Origin: Bacteroidaceae bacterium
Lineage (GTDB): Bacteria > Bacteroidota > Bacteroidia > Bacteroidales > Bacteroidaceae
Direction: 5' to 3'
Length of the DNA stretch: 58,331 nucleotides
Assembly (NCBI GenBank): GCA_017933995.1
Contig: JAGBKI010000019.1
Span: 1 to 58,331 of the forward strand
Part shown: positions 5,934-57,854 of the stretch, in pieces
Layout: each line of letters opens with the position of its first letter
Position numbering within the stretch: position 1 is the stretch's first letter
The notes under the pieces: generated by a model
Database searches by the model: none
What the model was told of the DNA's origin: nothing
What the model saw: only the letters and a program-made list of their open reading frames with translations
Translations under genes and position numbers: made by a program

Positions 5934-6022
5934 CGGAGAGTGAGGGATTCGAACCCCCGGTACGACGTAATGCGTACACCGCATTTCGAGTGCGGCTCTT
6001 TCGACCACTCAGACAACTCTCC
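5934..6022 (-). tRNA. tRNA-Ser(CGA)
   Basis: Class II tRNA. Acceptor strand GGAGAGT pairs with ACTCTCC; the anticodon arm is CCGCA-CTCGAAA-TGCGG with anticodon CGA; a variable stem of serine type follows; the T arm contains GGTTCGAACCC. The CCA is not encoded (CAA follows the discriminator G). It reads the UCG serine codon. Its 3' end borders the AT-rich island with the helicase/methylase module. Confidence 0.93.
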
Positions 6023-11877: not shown

Positions 11878-11974
11878 AGCGTAGGCAACATACCATATAG
11901 GAATGTTCCAGCCCGCATAGAAAGAGAACTTTATTGTTAAAGTCCCTCCCAAGAACGAGCGGATATGGAAAAAT

Positions 11975-12214
11975 GACGCTGGAAGCGTCACCCCCTCTGT
12001 AACCGCAGGTACGCGACGTGTAGCGGCGCGCACCTGCGGGAAAGGCATGGTGTGAGGACGGACGCTGGAAGCGTCCCCCACGATGGGAACGAGCGGCAAT
12101 GAACGCCCGTGGGGCACGCTTCCAGCGTGCGTTTTCTATCTACAGACCGCCGCAGGTGCGCTCCGTTTTACTTCGCGTACCTGCGGTTACAAAGAGGGCG
12201 ACGCTTCCAGCGTC
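11975..12214. repeat. 240-bp self-complementary dispersed element, copy 1
   Basis: Bounded by GACGCTGGAAGCGTC on the left and GACGCTTCCAGCGTC on the right, themselves palindromic. Internally the left half reads CCCTCTGTAACCGCAGGTAC then CGCACCTGCGG; the right half gives the complementary CCGCAGGTGCG then CGTACCTGCGGTTAC. The element could extrude as one large hairpin. A 239-bp relative is at 42957-43195 and a half copy at 34413-34514. No coding capacity. It resembles a MITE or a BIME-type repeat. Confidence 0.75.
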
Positions 12215-12308
12215 GTGCGCACGCTTCACAGCCCACAAATTCCCTTCTTCCGCTCCTGAAAAACCATCCAAACCCGCACAATTCCCGCCCGCTCCCACAC
12301 AATTCTCA

Positions 12309-12389
12309 AAATTAAGCCTTAATTTGTACAAACTAAGCCTAAGTTTCGCCAAATCTAAGCTTAATTTGCAGAAACTTAGGCTTAGTTTG
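12309..12389. repeat. Array of four 17-bp palindromes at 21-bp pitch, copy A
   Basis: Centres near 12317, 12338, 12359 and 12380. Unit 1 is a perfect palindrome AAATTAAG-C-CTTAATTT; units 2 and 4 (AAACTAAGCCTAAGTTT type) have one mismatch; unit 3 is degenerate around TAAGCTTA. Copy B at 40286-40365 is in reverse orientation. A spacing of two DNA turns between palindromes looks like a set of protein-binding operators. Confidence 0.75.
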
Positions 12390-12567
12390 GAGATTTGAAA
12401 GCCACTGCGAACTTTTTGTGCGGCTTGCGGCGGGATTTTTGCGGCTTCGGGGGAAATGTGCGGGGATGCCGGTGGGGCGGCCACGGCGGCAGGTGGAAGA
12501 TGTCGGGAAGGCGGGCGACGGCAACAAGATTCCAAGCGTGATATTTGGCCGTTCGCAGCGGATGGCC

Positions 12568-34252: not shown

Positions 34253-34412
34253 AGTCTTTCGGGCTTTCCCGCAAAGTTATTCCCAATAAATTCTAACTTA
34301 AAGGCACAAACTTTCAGGCTTTTGGGGATAAAGAGCATCGAAATCACTCCGTATTATATTATATTATTGCTGTCCGCTAAAACTTCTTAGACGATGAACC
34401 GCCGCGCACAAT

Positions 34413-34514
34413 GACGCTGAAAGCATCACCCCTTCTGTAACCGCTGGTACGCGACGTGTAGCGGCGCGCACCTGCGGCAGACGGCACACCACCGAATGCA
34501 CGCTGAAAGCGTGC
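34413..34514. repeat. 240-bp palindromic element, left half only (copy 3)
   Basis: Starts GACGCTGAAAGC and continues with CTGTAACCGCTGGTACGCG and CGCGCACCTGCGG, matching the left half of the copies at 11975 and 42957, then ends at GCACGCTGAAAGCGTGC. The complementary right half is absent. Confidence 0.65.
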
Positions 34515-36725: not shown

Positions 36726-37143
36726 AACCAGCCGGACGGTCTGCCGCTTGCGTCCCTGCGGCGCAAGAGGAAAGTCCGGGCAGCAAAGGGCGCTCCGCTT
36801 CCTAACGGGAAGAAGTCCGCGAGGGCTTGCCAGCGCAGAAGAAAACAACCGCCTCCGTCGCCGCCCACCCGCAAGGGGAAGCGGCGCGAGGCAAGGGTGA
36901 GAAGGTGGGGTAAGAGCCCACCAGCCGTATGGCGACATACGGGCTGTGCGCCCCGGAGGCTGAAAGTCCGCGTATACCGGCGCCCACGAGGGCGGCCCGT
37001 CCCAGTTCCGAAAGGAACGCGCCGGAGGGTAGGACGATTGAGACGTGCGGCGACGCACGCCCCAGATGAATGGCAGACACCGCCGCGCCATAGCGCACCG
37101 CGCGGACCGGCGGCACAGAACCCGGCTTACAGTCCGGCTGGTT
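36726..37143 (+). ncRNA. rnpB: RNase P RNA (bacterial type A)
   Basis: About 418 nt. The terminal P1 helix is AACCAGCCGGAC with GTCCGGCTGGTT. The universally conserved GAGGAAAGTCCGGGC lies near 36770, and further conserved parts are GAGGCTGAAAGTCCG-type sequence near 36957, GGTAAGAGCCCACC near 36909 and GACAGAACCCGGCTTACAG-like 3' core (CACAGAACCCGGCTTACAGT). It is followed by T-rich sequence acting as terminator. It removes 5' leaders from pre-tRNAs with RnpA. No TAnnTTTG box is visible in the 26-bp gap after higA. Confidence 0.97.
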
Positions 37144-37179
37144 TTTTCTTTTTTTCATCGCAAACCGATACCCATCCCC

Positions 37180-38492: not shown

Positions 38493-39455
38493 ATGCCCAC
38501 CATCGTCTTTCTCGACAGCAACGCCCTGGCCGGCCCGGGCGACCTCGACTGGCGCCCGCTCCGCGAGGCCGGCCAGTTCACCGAATACCCGCGCACGCCG
38601 CAGCCGCTCATCGCCGAGCGCACGCGCGGCGCCGAAATCGTCATCACCAACAAGTGCCGCCTCACCGCCGACGTGCTGCGCGAGATGCCCACCGTGCGCC
38701 TCATTCTGGAGGCCGCCACGGGCTTCGACAACATTGACGTCGCCGCCGCCCGCGCCCTCGGCATCGACGTCTGCAACGTGGCCGGATACGCCCGCCTGCC
38801 CGTGGCGCAGAGCATCGTGGCCATGCTGCTCGACCACTGCAACCGCATAGCCGACTACGCCCGCGAAAGCCGCGAGGGGCAGTGGGCCGCGTGCAAGGAC
38901 TTCTGCCTGCTGTCCCACCCCACGGTGGAACTCGACGGCAAGCGCATCAGCATCGTGGGCTTCGGCAGCATAGGCAGCGCGCTCGCCGACATGTTGCAAC
39001 CTTTCGGCGCCGAGGTGTGCGCCGTCACGTCCAAGCCGCAGGAAGCCCTGCCCACAGGCGTCACCAAGGTGAGCCTCGACGAAGCACTCGCCACGAGTTT
39101 CGCCCTGAGCCTCAACTGCCCGCTCACGCCCGCCAACCGTGGCTTCGTCAACGCCGCCCTACTGGCCAAGGCGCGGCGCGGGCTGGTGCTCATCAACACG
39201 GCGCGCGGCGCGGTGGTCAACGACGCTGACGTGGCCGCCGCCCTCGCCGACGGCACGCTGGGCGCCTACTACGCCGACGTGCTCACCGACGAGCCGCCGC
39301 GCCCCGACAACCCGCTGCTCACCGCCCCGCGCAGTTTCATCACGCCCCACGTCGCCTGGGCCACGCGCGAGGCCCGCACCCGCATCATCGAGGCCCTCGC
39401 CGCCAACGCCCGCGCCTACGCCACTGGGCAGCCGCTGCAAAACGTCGTGAATTAA
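38493..39455 (+). CDS. D-isomer-specific 2-hydroxyacid dehydrogenase (glycerate dehydrogenase-like)
   Basis: 320 residues. Catalytic-domain start (MPTIVFLDSNALAGPGDLDW), ATGFDNIDVAAARALGIDVCNVAGY near 72-96, NAD-binding ISIVGFGSIGSALADMLQPFGAEV near 150, LINTARGAVVNDADVAAAL with the active-site Arg near 232, DVLTDEPP with the Glu near 262, and ITPHVAWATREAR with the catalytic His near 288. Most like Bacteroidales enzymes annotated as hydroxypyruvate/glycerate dehydrogenases. Reduces a 2-keto acid with NADH; the actual substrate is uncertain. Probably transcribed with the T9SS plug gene 65 bp upstream. Confidence 0.93.
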   Translation: MPTIVFLDSNALAGPGDLDWRPLREAGQFTEYPRTPQPLIAERTRGAEIVITNKCRLTADVLREMPTVRLILEAATGFDNIDVAAARALGIDVCNVAGYARLPVAQSIVAMLLDHCNRIADYARESREGQWAACKDFCLLSHPTVELDGKRISIVGFGSIGSALADMLQPFGAEVCAVTSKPQEALPTGVTKVSLDEALATSFALSLNCPLTPANRGFVNAALLAKARRGLVLINTARGAVVNDADVAAALADGTLGAYYADVLTDEPPRPDNPLLTAPRSFITPHVAWATREARTRIIEALAANARAYATGQPLQNVVN

Positions 39456-39458
39456 ATT

Positions 39459-39553
39459 CATAATTAGGAGTTAGGAATTAGGAATTTCCGTCCGGCACGA
39501 CCACTCCCTCCACCCACCGCGCAGCCTAATTCCTAATTCCTAACTCCTAATTC
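39459..39553. repeat. Inverted repeat of ATTAGGA/GTTAGGA words
   Basis: The left arm (ATAATTAGGAGTTAGGAATTAGGAATT region, 39461-39487) and the right arm (CCTAATTCCTAATTCCTAACTCC region, 39526-39551) are nearly perfect complements around a 40-bp GC-rich centre. Same word set as at 48661-48782. It separates the dehydrogenase and TRIC genes and could form a long mRNA hairpin. Confidence 0.75.
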
Positions 39554-39573
39554 CCAATTCGCCTCTCCCCAAA

Positions 39574-40206
39574 ATGCAAATCACCTTCGTCCAAGTCCTC
39601 GACTTCATCGGCACGCTGGCCTTCGCCGTGTCGGGCATAAGGCTGTCGTCGGCCAAGCGTTTCGACCTGTTCGGTGCCTACATCGTGGGTCTCGTCACGG
39701 CCATCGGCGGCGGCACAATGCGCGACCTGATGCTGGGCGTGCCCATCTTCTGGATGCACGACCCGTTCTACCTCATCTGCACCGCGCTGGCGCTGCTGTG
39801 GGTCATCCTGTTCAGCCGCCACCTCATCCACCAAAACAACACGTGGTTCATCTTCGACACCATCGGCCTGGCCATGTTCACCGTGACGGGCATAGAAAAG
39901 ACGATGCACGCGCCCGACCAATACCCCTTTTGGGCCGCCATCATCATGGGCACCATCACCGGGGCCGCCGGGGGCGTGTTCCGCGACGTGTTCATGAACC
40001 AGGTGCCGCTCATCTTCCGTGGCGAGATTTACGCCCTGGCGTGCGTGCTGGGCGGCATCGCCTATTTCGCCGCGCTCGAATTGGGTCTTAGCACGGTGGC
40101 TGCCGGCCTCATCTGCGGCGCGTTCGTCATCACGATGCGCATCCTCGCCGTACGCTACCGCCTCCACCTCCCCATCCTCAAGGGCGACGAGACGCCTAAG
40201 GACTAA
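39574..40206 (+). CDS. TRIC-type cation channel family protein (YadS-like)
   Basis: 210 residues with about seven transmembrane helices arranged as two homologous three-helix repeats, each with a Gly-rich kink followed by Arg-Asp: AIGGGTMRDLMLG near 45 and GAAGGVFRDVFMN near 130. This is the bacterial TRIC (formerly UPF0126) pattern. Trimeric K+-permeable channels are known for the family; the physiological role in bacteria is uncertain. It lies between two repeat elements. Confidence 0.92.
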   Translation: MQITFVQVLDFIGTLAFAVSGIRLSSAKRFDLFGAYIVGLVTAIGGGTMRDLMLGVPIFWMHDPFYLICTALALLWVILFSRHLIHQNNTWFIFDTIGLAMFTVTGIEKTMHAPDQYPFWAAIIMGTITGAAGGVFRDVFMNQVPLIFRGEIYALACVLGGIAYFAALELGLSTVAAGLICGAFVITMRILAVRYRLHLPILKGDETPKD

Positions 40207-40285
40207 ACCGCTTCCACTCTTGCGCGGAAGGGAGAAAAAATCCCGCGCAAGGGCTTAATTCGCGGCCAAGTCCGCAGAAATCTGC

Positions 40286-40365
40286 AAATTAAGCCTTAGT
40301 TTTTACAAATTAAGGCTTAATTTGGCGAAACATAGGCTTAGTTTGTACAAACTAAGCCTTAATTT
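40286..40365. repeat. Array of four 17-bp palindromes at exact 21-bp pitch, copy B
   Basis: Centres at 40294, 40315, 40336 and 40357. Unit 2 is perfect (AAATTAAG-G-CTTAATTT); units 1 and 4 mix AAATTAAG and AAACTAAG half-sites; unit 3 is AAACATAG-G-CTTAGTTT. Linkers are TTAC, GGCG and GTAC-like. The array is the reverse complement of copy A at 12309-12389 in order and linkers. It lies 220 bp upstream of the porin gene and 80 bp after the TRIC gene. Confidence 0.8.
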
Positions 40366-40571
40366 GTAGAATTAGTCCGCACAAAAAAACTTTTTAGTCC
40401 GCAGCGGAATGTTTTGGGGTGCTTGGCGCGGCGTTTTTCTGCGCCGGGCGACGTTTTTTTTCTGCGCCTGCGGCGGGGCGAGCAGGTGTATCGGACACGC
40501 GCGCGTGCTACCTGCACGGCGTGCAAGCGAAAAAGGACGGGACGGGGGCGTGATACTTCGGGCGTTTTTCA
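40366..40571. other. Noncoding stretch upstream of the porin gene
   Basis: GC-rich with several T/A runs. The frame that continues upstream of the porin start through here is Cys/Arg-rich and not protein-like. No other signal seen. Confidence 0.5.
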
Positions 40572-42910: not shown

Positions 42911-42956
42911 AGTTGTCGGTGTGCGCTAAAACTTTTCAGCCAAAAAGCCACACAAT

Positions 42957-43195
42957 GACGCTGGAAGCGTCACCCCCTCTGTAACCGCAGGTACGCGGAA
43001 TGAAATGGAGCGCACCTGCGGCAGGCGGAACCCACCGGATGCATGCTGAAAGCGTGCCCCAGAAGCGCTAAAAGTGGCTCTTTCCCGTCGTGGGGGACGC
43101 TTTCTGCGTCCGTCACTCGCCCTGCCCACATCGCAGGTTCGCTCCGTTCCACTGCGCGAACCCGCGATTACAGAGGAGGAGACGCTTCCAGCGTC
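42957..43195. repeat. 239-bp self-complementary dispersed element, copy 2
   Basis: Starts GACGCTGGAAGCGTCACCCC and ends GACGCTTCCAGCGTC. Inside, CTGTAACCGCAGGTACGCGG and GAGCGCACCTGCGG on the left face CGCAGGTTCGCTCCG and GCGAACCCGCGATTACAGAG on the right. Same architecture and nearly the same length as the copy at 11975-12214. It occupies the gap between the porin terminator and the HD gene. Confidence 0.75.
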
Positions 43196-43225
43196 TTTCA
43201 CACATGACACCGCTCTAAACCACGT

Positions 43226-48660: not shown

Positions 48661-48782
48661 CTAATTAGAATAAGGATTAGGAATTAGGAGTTAGGAATTA
48701 GGCTACGCGAAGAAGCGCGCGGGAGAGTGGGCTGGATGCCGTGCCGACGACAATTCCTAATTCCTAACTCCTAATTTTAATT
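48661..48782. repeat. Inverted repeat of ATTAGGA/GTTAGGA words
   Basis: The left arm (AAGGATTAGGAATTAGGAGT then TAGGAATTAGG, 48672-48702) pairs with the right arm (AATTCCTAATTCCTAACTCC then TAATT, 48751-48776) around a 48-bp GC-rich centre. Near-identical word order to 39459-39553. It lies between the DUF4199 and purC genes. Confidence 0.75.
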
Positions 48783-55697: not shown

Positions 55698-56701
55698 GGG
55701 CGCAGGGCTTTAGGGCACACTTTGATGAACACGACGCCGACGGCCACCCAAAAAATCTCGCGCACGCGCGTATATAAAGCGGTATAGATGCCCAGGGCGG
55801 GCGCCAGTCCCAGCAGGGCGAAGACGGCGGCCACACCGCCCTCGCGCGCGCCGAGTTGCAGCGGCAGGAAGAAGAACACGTTGCCCACCAGCGAGGAGAA
55901 CGCCAGCACCATCAGGGCGTCGGCGTAACTCACCTGTACGCCGAAGGCAAGCAGGATGAAGACAAACTCCCACGTATTGACCAGGCGCGCGAAGTATTCG
56001 CACATCAAGGCTTTGATGAAAGCGCGCGGCGCGCGGTGGAGCATCGCCAGACATTCGTCGAGGCGCGCCGCCGAGTCGCCGTAGCGTTCGGCCAGACCGC
56101 GCGTGAAGCGTTGGAGCAGCGGCAGGGCGGCGGCCACGCGCAGCAGTTTCTGCGCCACGCCGCTGCGCACGCCGCGCAGGAAGAGGTAGTAGACCAGCGC
56201 GGCCAAGCAGACGAAGAGGGCTATCAGCACGCCGAGCGTGGCGTCCATCTTGGCGGCGTAGACGACGGGGAAGAGCAGGGCGGCGGTGGTCCACAGCAGG
56301 AAGTGGCTCAGCACGTGGGTCATCGAATAGAGCAGCGTGGAGGCCGTGGCGCGCGTGGTGCCGTAGCGCGGGCGCAACTCCATAATGCGGTAGGGCAGGC
56401 CGCCGAAGCCCATCGGCGTGATGTAGCTGAAAGCGAAGCCGCTCACCGTGAGGCGCAGCGCGGCGGGATAGGACAGGCGGGGGCTGTCGGGCGTGGCGGC
56501 GGTGAGGTTCACGATGGTGCGGTAGGCCACGCCGTTGAGCATATAGACGAAAATCCACACACCCAGCACGACGGGCAGCCACGGCCACGCGCCTTGCAGG
56601 AACAGGGCGGCGCCGGTGCCGTCGGTGTCGAAGTGCAGCGCCATAAACACCACGCAGGCGATGCCGAAGACGAAGAAAAGGTTGCGGTATAGGGGCTTCA
56701 C
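55694..56701 (-). CDS. Flippase-like integral membrane protein (LPG synthase TM/AglD family)
   Basis: 335 residues with eight or so transmembrane helices. The segment SGFAFSYITPMGFGGLPYRIMELRPRYG near 88-115 is the conserved region of the lysylphosphatidylglycerol_synth_TM/UPF0104 family, with SSLVGNVFFFLPLQLGAREGG near 270 as the second. No catalytic synthetase domain follows, so it is the membrane-only type thought to flip or move lipids. Neighbours are a CDP-alcohol phosphatidyltransferase and a HAD hydrolase, suggesting it handles their lipid product. Confidence 0.87.
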   Translation of the reverse strand: MKPLYRNLFFVFGIACVVFMALHFDTDGTGAALFLQGAWPWLPVVLGVWIFVYMLNGVAYRTIVNLTAATPDSPRLSYPAALRLTVSGFAFSYITPMGFGGLPYRIMELRPRYGTTRATASTLLYSMTHVLSHFLLWTTAALLFPVVYAAKMDATLGVLIALFVCLAALVYYLFLRGVRSGVAQKLLRVAAALPLLQRFTRGLAERYGDSAARLDECLAMLHRAPRAFIKALMCEYFARLVNTWEFVFILLAFGVQVSYADALMVLAFSSLVGNVFFFLPLQLGAREGGVAAVFALLGLAPALGIYTALYTRVREIFWVAVGVVFIKVCPKALRP

Positions 56702-56744
56702 GGTTCAGGGTATCAGTTCAAAGGGCTTGTATATTGCCGAACGT

Positions 56745-56990
56745 TTATTGGCCAACGTTTAATGCTTATTGGCCAACGTTTAATGCTTATTGGCCAACGT
56801 TCAATGTTTATTGGCCAACGTTTAATGTTTATTGGCCAACGTTTAATGTTTATTGGCCAACGTTTAATGTTTATTGGCCAACGTTTAATGTTTATTGGCC
56901 AGCGTTTAATGTTTATTGGCCAACGTTTAATGTTTATTGGCCAACGTTTAATGTTTATTGGCCAGCGTTTAATGTTTATTGTCTATTGTT
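56745..56990. repeat. 21-bp tandem repeat, 11 complete copies plus partial ends
   Basis: The unit is TTATTGGCCAACGTTTAATG followed by T or C. Eleven full units run 56745-56975, with a degenerate start near 56731 and a diverging tail to about 56990. Variation is limited to a few positions (A/G in CCAACG, T/C before AATG, T/C at the unit end). Each unit contains the palindromes TTGGCCAA and AACGTT. The array fills the gap between the flippase-like and CDP-alcohol transferase genes, and its tail overlaps the stop codon of the latter. Two plus-strand frames are open across it, but there is no start signal or gene-like context. Confidence 0.9.
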
Positions 56991-57854
56991 TATTGTTCTG
57001 CACAGTCGCTCGTGCCGCCTGTGCATCACCACGTAGAGGGCGGTGAAGACGGTCACCTCGGCGGCGAAGTAGAGCCAGGGGTGTCCCACGAGCAGGCTGG
57101 CGTAGAGCGTCAGGGCGCGGGCGTTGAACGTGAGCAGGTTGGCGTAGGCCATCAGCGGGCGGCTGCCCTCCAGAAACGGCTCGCGCAGCGACGGTTGGGC
57201 GAAGAGGCGGGCGCGGACGAGCTGGAAACAGGGCGTGGCGGCCTCCTGCGCGGCGGTGTAGCGGATGTAGGTCCACAGGAAGGCTTTCCACACGCGGTTG
57301 CCCCGCCACGGCAGGCGGTTGTAGTCCTGGCGCAGGCGTCGGCTGTCGTCGAGTTCGCTGCCGTCAGCGCCTTTGAGGAGGCGCAGGTGGATGTTGCGGT
57401 AGTAGTCGGCCAGCCGCGCCTGCCGCGTGTGGCAGCCGAAGCCCGCCACAGTGCCGAGCATCCAAATCCACACGCCCCACTGCGGCTGCAGGCGCAGGCA
57501 GATGGCGGCGTAGATGGTCACGAACCAGAGGTCGCCCGCCGCGCCGTCGAGCACACGTCCCAGGCGCGACTTCCGGCCCGTCATTCGCGCCATCTGCCCG
57601 TCGGTGCTGTCGAAGATATTGGCTTGCACCAGCAGCAGGATGCCCAGGGCGTTGAGCGCGAGGTCGTCGAAGTAGAACAGCACGCCCGCCGCCACGCCCA
57701 GCACGATGGAGAGGACGGTGACGGCGTTGGGCGTCCAACCCAGGCGTATGAACAGGCGCGCCCACAGCAGGCCGACAGGGCGCGTGAAAACGCGGTCGAG
57801 CCATTCCTCGGTGTCGAGGCTCTTGTAGGTGTCGCGGGCGGTGACTTTGGCCAT
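56976..57854 (-). CDS. CDP-alcohol phosphatidyltransferase
   Basis: 292 residues with about six to eight hydrophobic helices. Carries the full CDP-alcohol transferase signature D-x2-DG-x2-AR-x8-G-x3-D-x3-D as DSTDGQMARM then RLGRVLDGAAGD near residues 83-108. It transfers a phospho-alcohol from a CDP-linked donor to an alcohol acceptor at the membrane. Longer than bacterial PgsA or PssA (about 180-250), with an extra region at 150-215. The gene follows the ATP-grasp gene by 4 bp. The product could be an inositol- or other polyol-headgroup lipid, but the alcohol cannot be read from sequence. Confidence 0.92.
   Translation of the reverse strand: MAKVTARDTYKSLDTEEWLDRVFTRPVGLLWARLFIRLGWTPNAVTVLSIVLGVAAGVLFYFDDLALNALGILLLVQANIFDSTDGQMARMTGRKSRLGRVLDGAAGDLWFVTIYAAICLRLQPQWGVWIWMLGTVAGFGCHTRQARLADYYRNIHLRLLKGADGSELDDSRRLRQDYNRLPWRGNRVWKAFLWTYIRYTAAQEAATPCFQLVRARLFAQPSLREPFLEGSRPLMAYANLLTFNARALTLYASLLVGHPWLYFAAEVTVFTALYVVMHRRHERLCRTINNRQ

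Follow-up and report, generated by a model that had tools for sequence, protein, structure and literature searches.

Dispersed four-unit palindrome arrays in a Bacteroidaceae genome and a candidate HU-winged-helix protein as their cognate factor

Arrays in the window and across the genome

The window, the whole stretch of 58,331 nucleotides analysed in this work, contains a gene at 39574-40206 which we take to be TRIC-like, two structural RNAs, and two arrays (A and B) of four 17-bp near-palindromes joined by 4-bp linkers. The features and the flanks of each array are located as follows.

5934-6022: tRNA (Rfam)
12225..12308, no strand: left flank of array A, in the region of the family-wide phased A/T-G/C preference (family profile)
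12309..12388, no strand: array A, four 17-bp near-palindromes at 21-bp pitch; unit starts at 12309/12330/12351/12372, exactly 21 bp apart; linkers GTAC, CGCC, GCAG; unit 3 degenerate
12389..12472, no strand: right flank of array A, starting with GGAGATTT, like the family edge G[CG]AGA[AT]TT
36728-37145: bacterial class A RNase P RNA (Rfam)
40202..40285, no strand: left flank of array B, ending with AAATCTGC, the reverse complement of the family edge; family-wide profile; its first bases are shared with the end of the ORF that stops at 40206
40286..40365, no strand: array B, four 17-bp near-palindromes at 21-bp pitch; unit starts at 40286/40307/40328/40349, exactly 21 bp apart; linkers TTAC, GGCG, GTAC; unit 3 with one mismatch
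40366..40449, no strand: right flank of array B, starting with GTAGAATT, a rarer variant of the family edge; family-wide profile

The two arrays of four palindromes at an exact 21-bp pitch, as well as their intergenic location, had been proposed in the original prediction, and both points were confirmed, with array A ending at 12388 and with both arrays outside the genes called by our own script. The palindrome form given there, AAAYTAAG-N-CTTARTTT, holds exactly for four of the eight units, and the other four require the wider consensus AAAYTWAGSCTWARTTT (motif 1), from which the third unit of A deviates by two mismatches and the third unit of B by one. At up to three mismatches this consensus has eight sites in the window, all within A and B, compared with 0.23 expected from 100 shuffles of the window, none of which reached eight. 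The opposite orientation ascribed to A and B has little meaning, because the arrays are nearly dyad-symmetric mosaics.

Several other repeats are present in the window. Twelve near-identical 21-bp tandem copies (GTTTAATGTTTATTGGCCAAC) at 56677-57033 have the same pitch as the arrays and more units, and were flagged by a motif-free scan; being of other sequence, they were excluded from the family. A second family of dispersed imperfect inverted repeats (GACGCTGGAAGCGTC ... GTAACCGCAGGTACGCG) is found at 11969-12214, 34407-34487 and 42951-43203, one of them beside array A, and AATTCCTAATTCCTAACTCCTAATT repeats occur in both orientations at 39455-39566 and 48676-48776.

The genome of the window (G000; 2.48 Mb in 66 contigs, 83.7% complete) has 339 single motif 1 sites at up to two mismatches, vs one for the reversed pattern, and 83 four-unit arrays of 21-bp pitch at up to three mismatches, vs none for the reversed pattern. 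Further copies thus exist genome-wide, and their pitch is exactly 21 bp rather than random. We examined the 75 array positions that were listed, which take in only part of the 83, retrieving the DNA around 73, with the two window arrays as the remainder. Exactly four units are present in 71 of these; the remaining four have two, three, five and six units, one each, and are left out of the set of 71 used below. None of the 75 lies inside a predicted gene (own simple gene caller), and they are spread over 44 of the 66 contigs.

The spacing of the arrays is regular. On the contigs below C42, for which the list of arrays is nearly complete, the 21 gaps between arrays range from 7.9 to 41 kb, with a coefficient of variation of 0.44 vs 0.85 expected (P 0.0005) and no gap below 7 kb vs 6.1 expected (P 0.00025). 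All 31 gaps listed for this genome, from a less complete list, give the same picture, with a minimum of 7.8 kb. Gaps are 11.7-31.7 kb in the congener G061 (n=6) and 9.2-188 kb among the matches listed for G069 (n=21). The arrays are thus dispersed over the chromosome with over-dispersed gaps, like the sites of site-specific nucleoid proteins such as matS. Around 68 arrays of G000, the neighbouring genes are divergent in 26 cases, co-directional in 27 and convergent in 15, compared with 12, 22 and 3 for 37 intergenic regions without arrays that are 250 bp or longer; with our own gene caller, no promoter preference of the dispersed arrays over these regions was found (P 0.08).

All 71 four-unit arrays are distinct from each other. 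Their median best identity to another array is 75 of 80 positions, which is high because few positions vary. The linkers, suggested earlier to be conserved, vary among a few words: the 213 strand-collapsed linkers comprise CGCC (70), GTAC (65), CTAC (37), GTAA (20) and rarer forms (21). The related idea that the whole block moves as a unit is contradicted by the distinctness of all 71 arrays and by their flanks, which share no common sequence beyond an edge word and a phased composition; moreover, between array pairs of G000 and G061 that have a neighbour gene in common, the non-coding DNA outside the array is unmatched wherever it was aligned.

As a family, the 142 flanks of the G000 arrays begin with the edge word G[CG]AGA[AT]TT directly beside the array, followed by A/T-rich positions 4-7, 25-28, 46-49 and 67-70 and G/C-rich positions 12-14, 33-34, 54-55 and 75-76, a phased preference that fades ~84-100 bp from the array. 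Both the 21-bp and the 10.5-bp components are significant in G000 (139 flanks), G061 (54) and G069 (14), with nearly equal 21-bp phase in the three genomes. For G085 (10 flanks) and G320 (7), significance is limited to the 10.5-bp component. At 300-384 bp none of the five sets has a significant 21-bp signal, and a weak 10.5-bp signal persists in G000 only. Judged by its composition, an array with its flanks looks like a bending or wrapping path of ~250 bp. In runs directly beside some G000 arrays (L061, L057, L047), 21-bp tandem copies were also seen, as if the flank period were expandable.

The palindromes are built from half-sites of two kinds, C and T types. Within a palindrome the two types are independent (P 0.63 in G000, 0.32 in G061 and 0.37 in G069). 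Across the 4-bp linker they are coupled (P 4e-18 in the 71 arrays of G000, 0.02 in the 29 of G061 and 0.016 in the eight of G069), with few or no T-T pairs. This coupling may reflect either a contact of neighbouring protomers or one dimer spanning the linker.

Related genomes and the candidate protein

A first scan of 36 congeners gave at most two motif 1 sites per genome at up to one mismatch. An exact two-unit motif 1 scan of a public genome collection, which may omit the genome of the window, retrieved 20 stretches: 12 from RGIG5034 (roe deer rumen), three from a Bacteroidales MAG, two from a Parabacteroides MAG, one from RGIG8884 and two from Chryseobacterium. The Chryseobacterium matches have two units only and were set aside; one of those genomes was checked and has one pair. 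Among the other 18 stretches, 17 have four units and the one from RGIG8884 (L027) has three. The latter is nearly 100% identical over several kb to a locus of G000 (L075), as for the same species or an assembly contamination.

The RGIG5034 genome is G061, a congener of G000; G072 was taken as the same genome by its equal coordinates and identities. All 29 arrays retrieved from G061 have four units. For seven of them the immediate neighbour gene is the reciprocal best match of the neighbour of a G000 array (53-98% identical, sought among array-neighbour genes only), compared with one or two expected by chance, a rough estimate from an unmeasured gene count. The gene start faces the array in all seven cases, two of which (L141 and L167) correspond to opposite sides of one G000 array, L044. 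The other 22 have no immediate neighbour in common with the G000 arrays examined. In the congener loci inspected by eye, the site downstream of the 39574-40206 gene showed no array.

A gene that adjoins an array in both G000 and G061 encodes an HU domain with a C-terminal winged helix (HU-wHTH):

G000, contig C7 29330-29953 (locus L044 3157-3783): HU-wHTH gene, 208 aa, array 76 bp upstream
G061, L141 2687-3304: HU-wHTH gene, array at 162 bp

The proteins of G000 and G061 match PF18291 with 76.3 and 68.8 bits, respectively (cut-off 26.2), and matches to TIGR01201 (HU_rel) reach 78.6, 71.3 and 97 bits (cut-off 68.6). An AlphaFold2 model of the single chain, built from nine sequences, has an HU and winged-helix fold with a mean pLDDT of 86.7 and a pTM of 0.54, the modelled C-terminal winged helix comprising helices 144-158, 163-170 and 174-186 and strands 192-195 and 202-205. 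The best Foldseek match is Bacteroides vulgatus BVU_2165 (4fmr; TM 0.43-0.45), followed by HU/IHF proteins; winged-helix matches are weak (AspA, MarR type and PagR at E 0.06-0.09). Judged by these profiles and by the predicted fold, the candidate is a member of the HU-HIG / HU_rel family with a winged helix fused to HU.

Of the 24 genomes searched, nine have close full-length homologues (E <=1e-24), and when 393 genomes of the order were searched with a profile, ten had a match at E <=1e-30. One genome, G085, has twenty-one HU-like matches, several with an in-frame stop, which suggests repeated duplication and decay.

The upstream regions of homologues were scored for four similar palindromic 17-mers at 21-bp pitch, independently of the motif; 142 control windows of 600 bp gave a mean of 70 and a maximum of 97, the next being 87. 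Close homologues were defined as full-length, with E <=1e-24 in the 24-genome search or at least 148 bits in the 393-genome profile search, and with at least 600 bp upstream. From among the matches listed we drew 17, leaving out L170 and L193 (since G072 is the G061 genome), L198 and L208 (duplicates of the L190 and L168 genes), L197 (where the gene found is the one tested in L180) and L175 (198 bp upstream). An array is present 34-296 bp before the start in 16 of the 17, with scores of 89-151: two in G000, four in G059, and one each in G061, G075, G015, G017, G069, G062, G020, G320, G103 and G173. Two of these scores (95 and 89) fall below the control maximum. The top control window itself (L134 position 216, in G011) may be an array (ACTTACGC..GCGTAAGT). 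The seventeenth homologue (L202, in G149) has no 21-bp array within 700 bp, only weak repeats of 22-bp pitch, and the G063 gene has 198 bp of upstream sequence, too short for array scoring. Among the 27 weaker HU relatives with retrieved loci, an upstream array is present in two, L178 (G085; more distant, score 123) and L216 (G059; truncated match, score 114); the other 25, one with only 162 bp upstream, score 55-74.

In G059 the array is exactly 63 bp from the start in five of six matches and absent from the sixth (L217), and some of the motifs at these matches resemble each other (L201 and L213; L209 and L216) while others differ. Related proteins with agreeing motifs were found in G015 and G017, in G320 and G103, and in G069 and the second protein of G000. 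In cultured species, for which five of 16 matching records were opened, the array is present at four of the five loci, 84-101 bp upstream, with scores of 119 in Bacteroides finegoldii, 103 in Parabacteroides distasonis, and 125 and a borderline 91 in Phocaeicola massiliensis; a third Phocaeicola massiliensis gene scores 86 and was not counted as having an array. One HU-wHTH protein of Parabacteroides distasonis is WP_005856492.1. Two array-like GTCTTTT...AAAACAC blocks, 34 kb apart, were also observed in Phocaeicola massiliensis (L258 positions 5877 and 40357).

The motif changes together with the protein. In a set of 13 genomes, motif 1 sites number 339 in G000, 145 in G061, 52 in G062 and 65 in G063 (control 21), and in the other nine they are not above their controls. 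The second HU-wHTH protein of G000, encoded on contig C27, has its own motif AAACCAAASTTTGGTTT (motif 2), with 83 sites in G069, 14 in G000, eight in G062 and 0-3 in the ten others, and the motif of G020 has 22 sites in its own genome and 0-4 in the other twelve. Each of the three motifs tested thus peaks in genomes whose HU-wHTH gene carries that motif. The eight motif 2 sites of G062 (control 2) were observed, yet no motif 2 protein was seen there. Across 18 proteins, one of them truncated and with shared ancestry partly controlled, winged-helix identity predicts motif similarity when HU identity is allowed for (partial Mantel r 0.31, 0/2000 permutations); the reverse test of HU identity given the winged helix was not significant (r 0.12, P 0.083).

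Besides the array upstream of its gene on C27, motif 2 forms arrays on C14 and C17 of G000, and the arrays on C21 and C53 are mixed, each with two motif 1 and two motif 2 units in one four-unit array. Two further single motif 2 sites (C33 and C62) have no array. The two mixed arrays suggest that the number of positions is fixed at four, while the word at any one of them can be exchanged.

Motif-free scans give dispersed arrays in several genomes: five in G085 (120 kb), all of its own motif; five in G320 (116 kb), two resembling its own motif and three with a different one; three in G020 (120 kb), one of its own motif; one in G017 (120 kb), not of its own motif; and eight in G069 (160 kb, selected around known sites), seven with its own motif. 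The three G320 arrays of the second motif, ~ATCTYCAGSCTGRAGAT, lie at L239 and L240, and this genome encodes further HU-wHTH relatives. None were found in 20 kb of G075 or in 120 kb of G059, although five G059 genes have self-arrays, so that the genome-wide role does not extend to every genome. At six other pitches between 18 and 24, arrays were seen only in G085 (one at 22 and three at 23) and G320 (one at 22).

Proposed mechanism and alternative explanations

Both HU-wHTH genes of G000 have a TAnnTTTG box 21 bp beyond the array, and the array's end contributes a TTTG 20 bp before this box, a combination that we take to be the Bacteroides promoter consensus. In G085 the same TTTG-N20-TAnnTTTG pair occurs, but 55 bp beyond the array, and in G017 the box is present at 21 bp without TTTG; in nine of the upstream regions of the other 16 proteins there is no such TAnnTTTG box.

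We consider it probable that the arrays are assembly sites of a dedicated site-specific HU-wHTH protein, which would repress its own gene and would probably have an architectural function elsewhere. For arrays A and B of the window the cognate protein would be the 208-aa HU-wHTH of C7, whose own gene bears a like array. The winged helices of this protein, predicted to be attached to an HU dimer body, would read the 17-bp palindromes, and the HU bodies would bend the A/T-rich joints (TTT-N4-AAA) between them. Because the pitch corresponds to two helical turns, four dimers would be aligned on one face of the DNA and may bend or wrap ~84 bp; the bent path may carry on for ~84 bp to each side, where the DNA has only the phased A/T-G/C preference. 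Given the half-site coupling, a dimer may span the linker rather than the palindrome. The earlier proposal of same-face sites for a cooperatively binding protein or nucleoid factor is supported by the candidate gene that adjoins arrays in many genomes and by the bending-type 21/10.5-bp signal of the flanks. In front of the HU-wHTH gene itself the array coincides in part with the presumed -33 element, so that autorepression would be expected, as far as the two G000 genes indicate. Elsewhere, the arrays, ~8-42 kb apart and in all intergenic kinds including convergent ones, would organise the chromosome rather than single genes; the lack of promoter preference and the regular spacing favour such an architectural role.

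A more far-reaching version of this mechanism, which we put forward tentatively and with somewhat less than even confidence, is a nucleosome-like system, in which four-dimer particles on ~250-bp dyad-symmetric wrapping sites every 10-40 kb would define chromosome domains. Each protein would have a private, fast-changing address code followed by its whole set of sites, and paralogues would share 2+2 hybrid arrays.

The main alternative to be weighed is an ordinary regulon, in which the HU-wHTH protein would regulate transcription from ~80 target promoters, with the dispersed arrays as its operators. Its expectations agree with the array in front of the protein's own gene, the promoter overlap at both G000 genes, the start of all seven shared immediate neighbours of G061 and G000 towards the array, and the 26 of 68 arrays between divergent genes. 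However, 15 of the 68 lie between convergent genes, vs 3 of the 37 other regions of at least 250 bp, with no promoter bias (P 0.08), the spacing is regular, and the footprint of ~250 bp is symmetric, which makes this explanation unlikely in our judgement. Wrapping by a protein of the Lrp/AsnC type was another early reading, dropped once the HU-wHTH gene was found. The motif differences between congeners and some paralogues could also be read as a self-marking or conflict system, a private motif labelling the cell's own DNA against incoming DNA or competing paralogues, in line with the zero exact two-unit motif 1 matches in a viral collection (one motif, exact). Conflict roles for HU clades were reportedly proposed in a 2017 paper; we regard this reading of the arrays as very improbable.

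A small mobile element, MITE- or REP-like and amplified in the species, would account for the many dispersed intergenic copies and the patchy species distribution, and over-dispersion would suit target immunity. Copies related by descent with defined ends, expected of such elements, were not found: the 71 of 71 distinct arrays are mosaics of units with no common flank beyond the edge word and the phased signal. In many genomes HU-wHTH genes are preceded by an identical layout built from other motifs, some arrays retain their neighbour gene between species, and 2+2 mixed arrays exist, so that an origin by amplification is extremely unlikely. An RNA-level element such as paired terminators, for which the palindromic units and the location of 16 of 69 arrays between convergent genes might speak, has a practically negligible probability: a one-base centre should permit only short, A/T-rich hairpins, the arrays occupy every kind of intergenic region, and Rfam matches in the window are limited to RNase P and one tRNA. 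A viral origin was rejected on the zero exact two-unit motif 1 matches in viral contigs and the weak PHROG matches of three HU-wHTH proteins. A plasmid origin was likewise discarded, as all 16 matching records are typed non-mobilizable; of the five opened, two have gene tables, and these list recA, clpB and other genes typical of a chromosome.

Relation to known systems and significance

In the textbook view, the HU proteins of bacteria bend DNA irrespective of its sequence. The candidate protein scores above the cut-offs of the HU-HIG family of the HU/IHF superfamily (PF18291) and of TIGR01201, with a predicted fold of HU and winged helix; the HU-HIG domain is said to have been defined in an earlier paper. 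To our knowledge, no genome-wide array with sequence specificity has been described for this family, and a literature search brought up neither arrays of this kind nor a DNA code of the family, which does not prove absence from print.

MatP-matS, Noc-NBS and SlmA-SBS are systems of short palindromic sites dispersed over the chromosome and read by a dedicated protein. The arrays resemble them in their short dispersed palindromes, and the gene beside an array together with the motif counts across genomes points to a candidate for the dedicated protein. Unlike them, the arrays have four units, a fixed 21-bp pitch and a phased flank, and the candidate protein has an HU body, an array in front of the gene that encodes it, and a motif that differs from one such protein to another. 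Regulators of the Lrp/AsnC and phage 186 CI types bind as several dimers to sites about two turns apart, with the DNA bent or wrapped. Their spacing is like that of the arrays, although they belong to other protein families and are known mainly from individual promoters. BIME/REP elements are dispersed intergenic palindromic modules. The likeness extends to strong gyrase sites, wrapping sites that the phased A/T-G/C flanks recall; unlike BIME/REP, the arrays are associated with an HU-wHTH protein, vary in motif between genomes and keep an exact four-unit layout.

By these comparisons, a branch of the HU proteins appears to carry its own address code, written in four-unit arrays chromosome-wide and with a motif that changes between species and some paralogues. 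The arrays make the division of Bacteroidota chromosomes directly testable, and they offer a natural experiment on how a protein and ~80 of its sites change together. Since homologues with self-arrays are present in the named gut species Bacteroides finegoldii, Parabacteroides distasonis and Phocaeicola massiliensis, the system is accessible at the bench.
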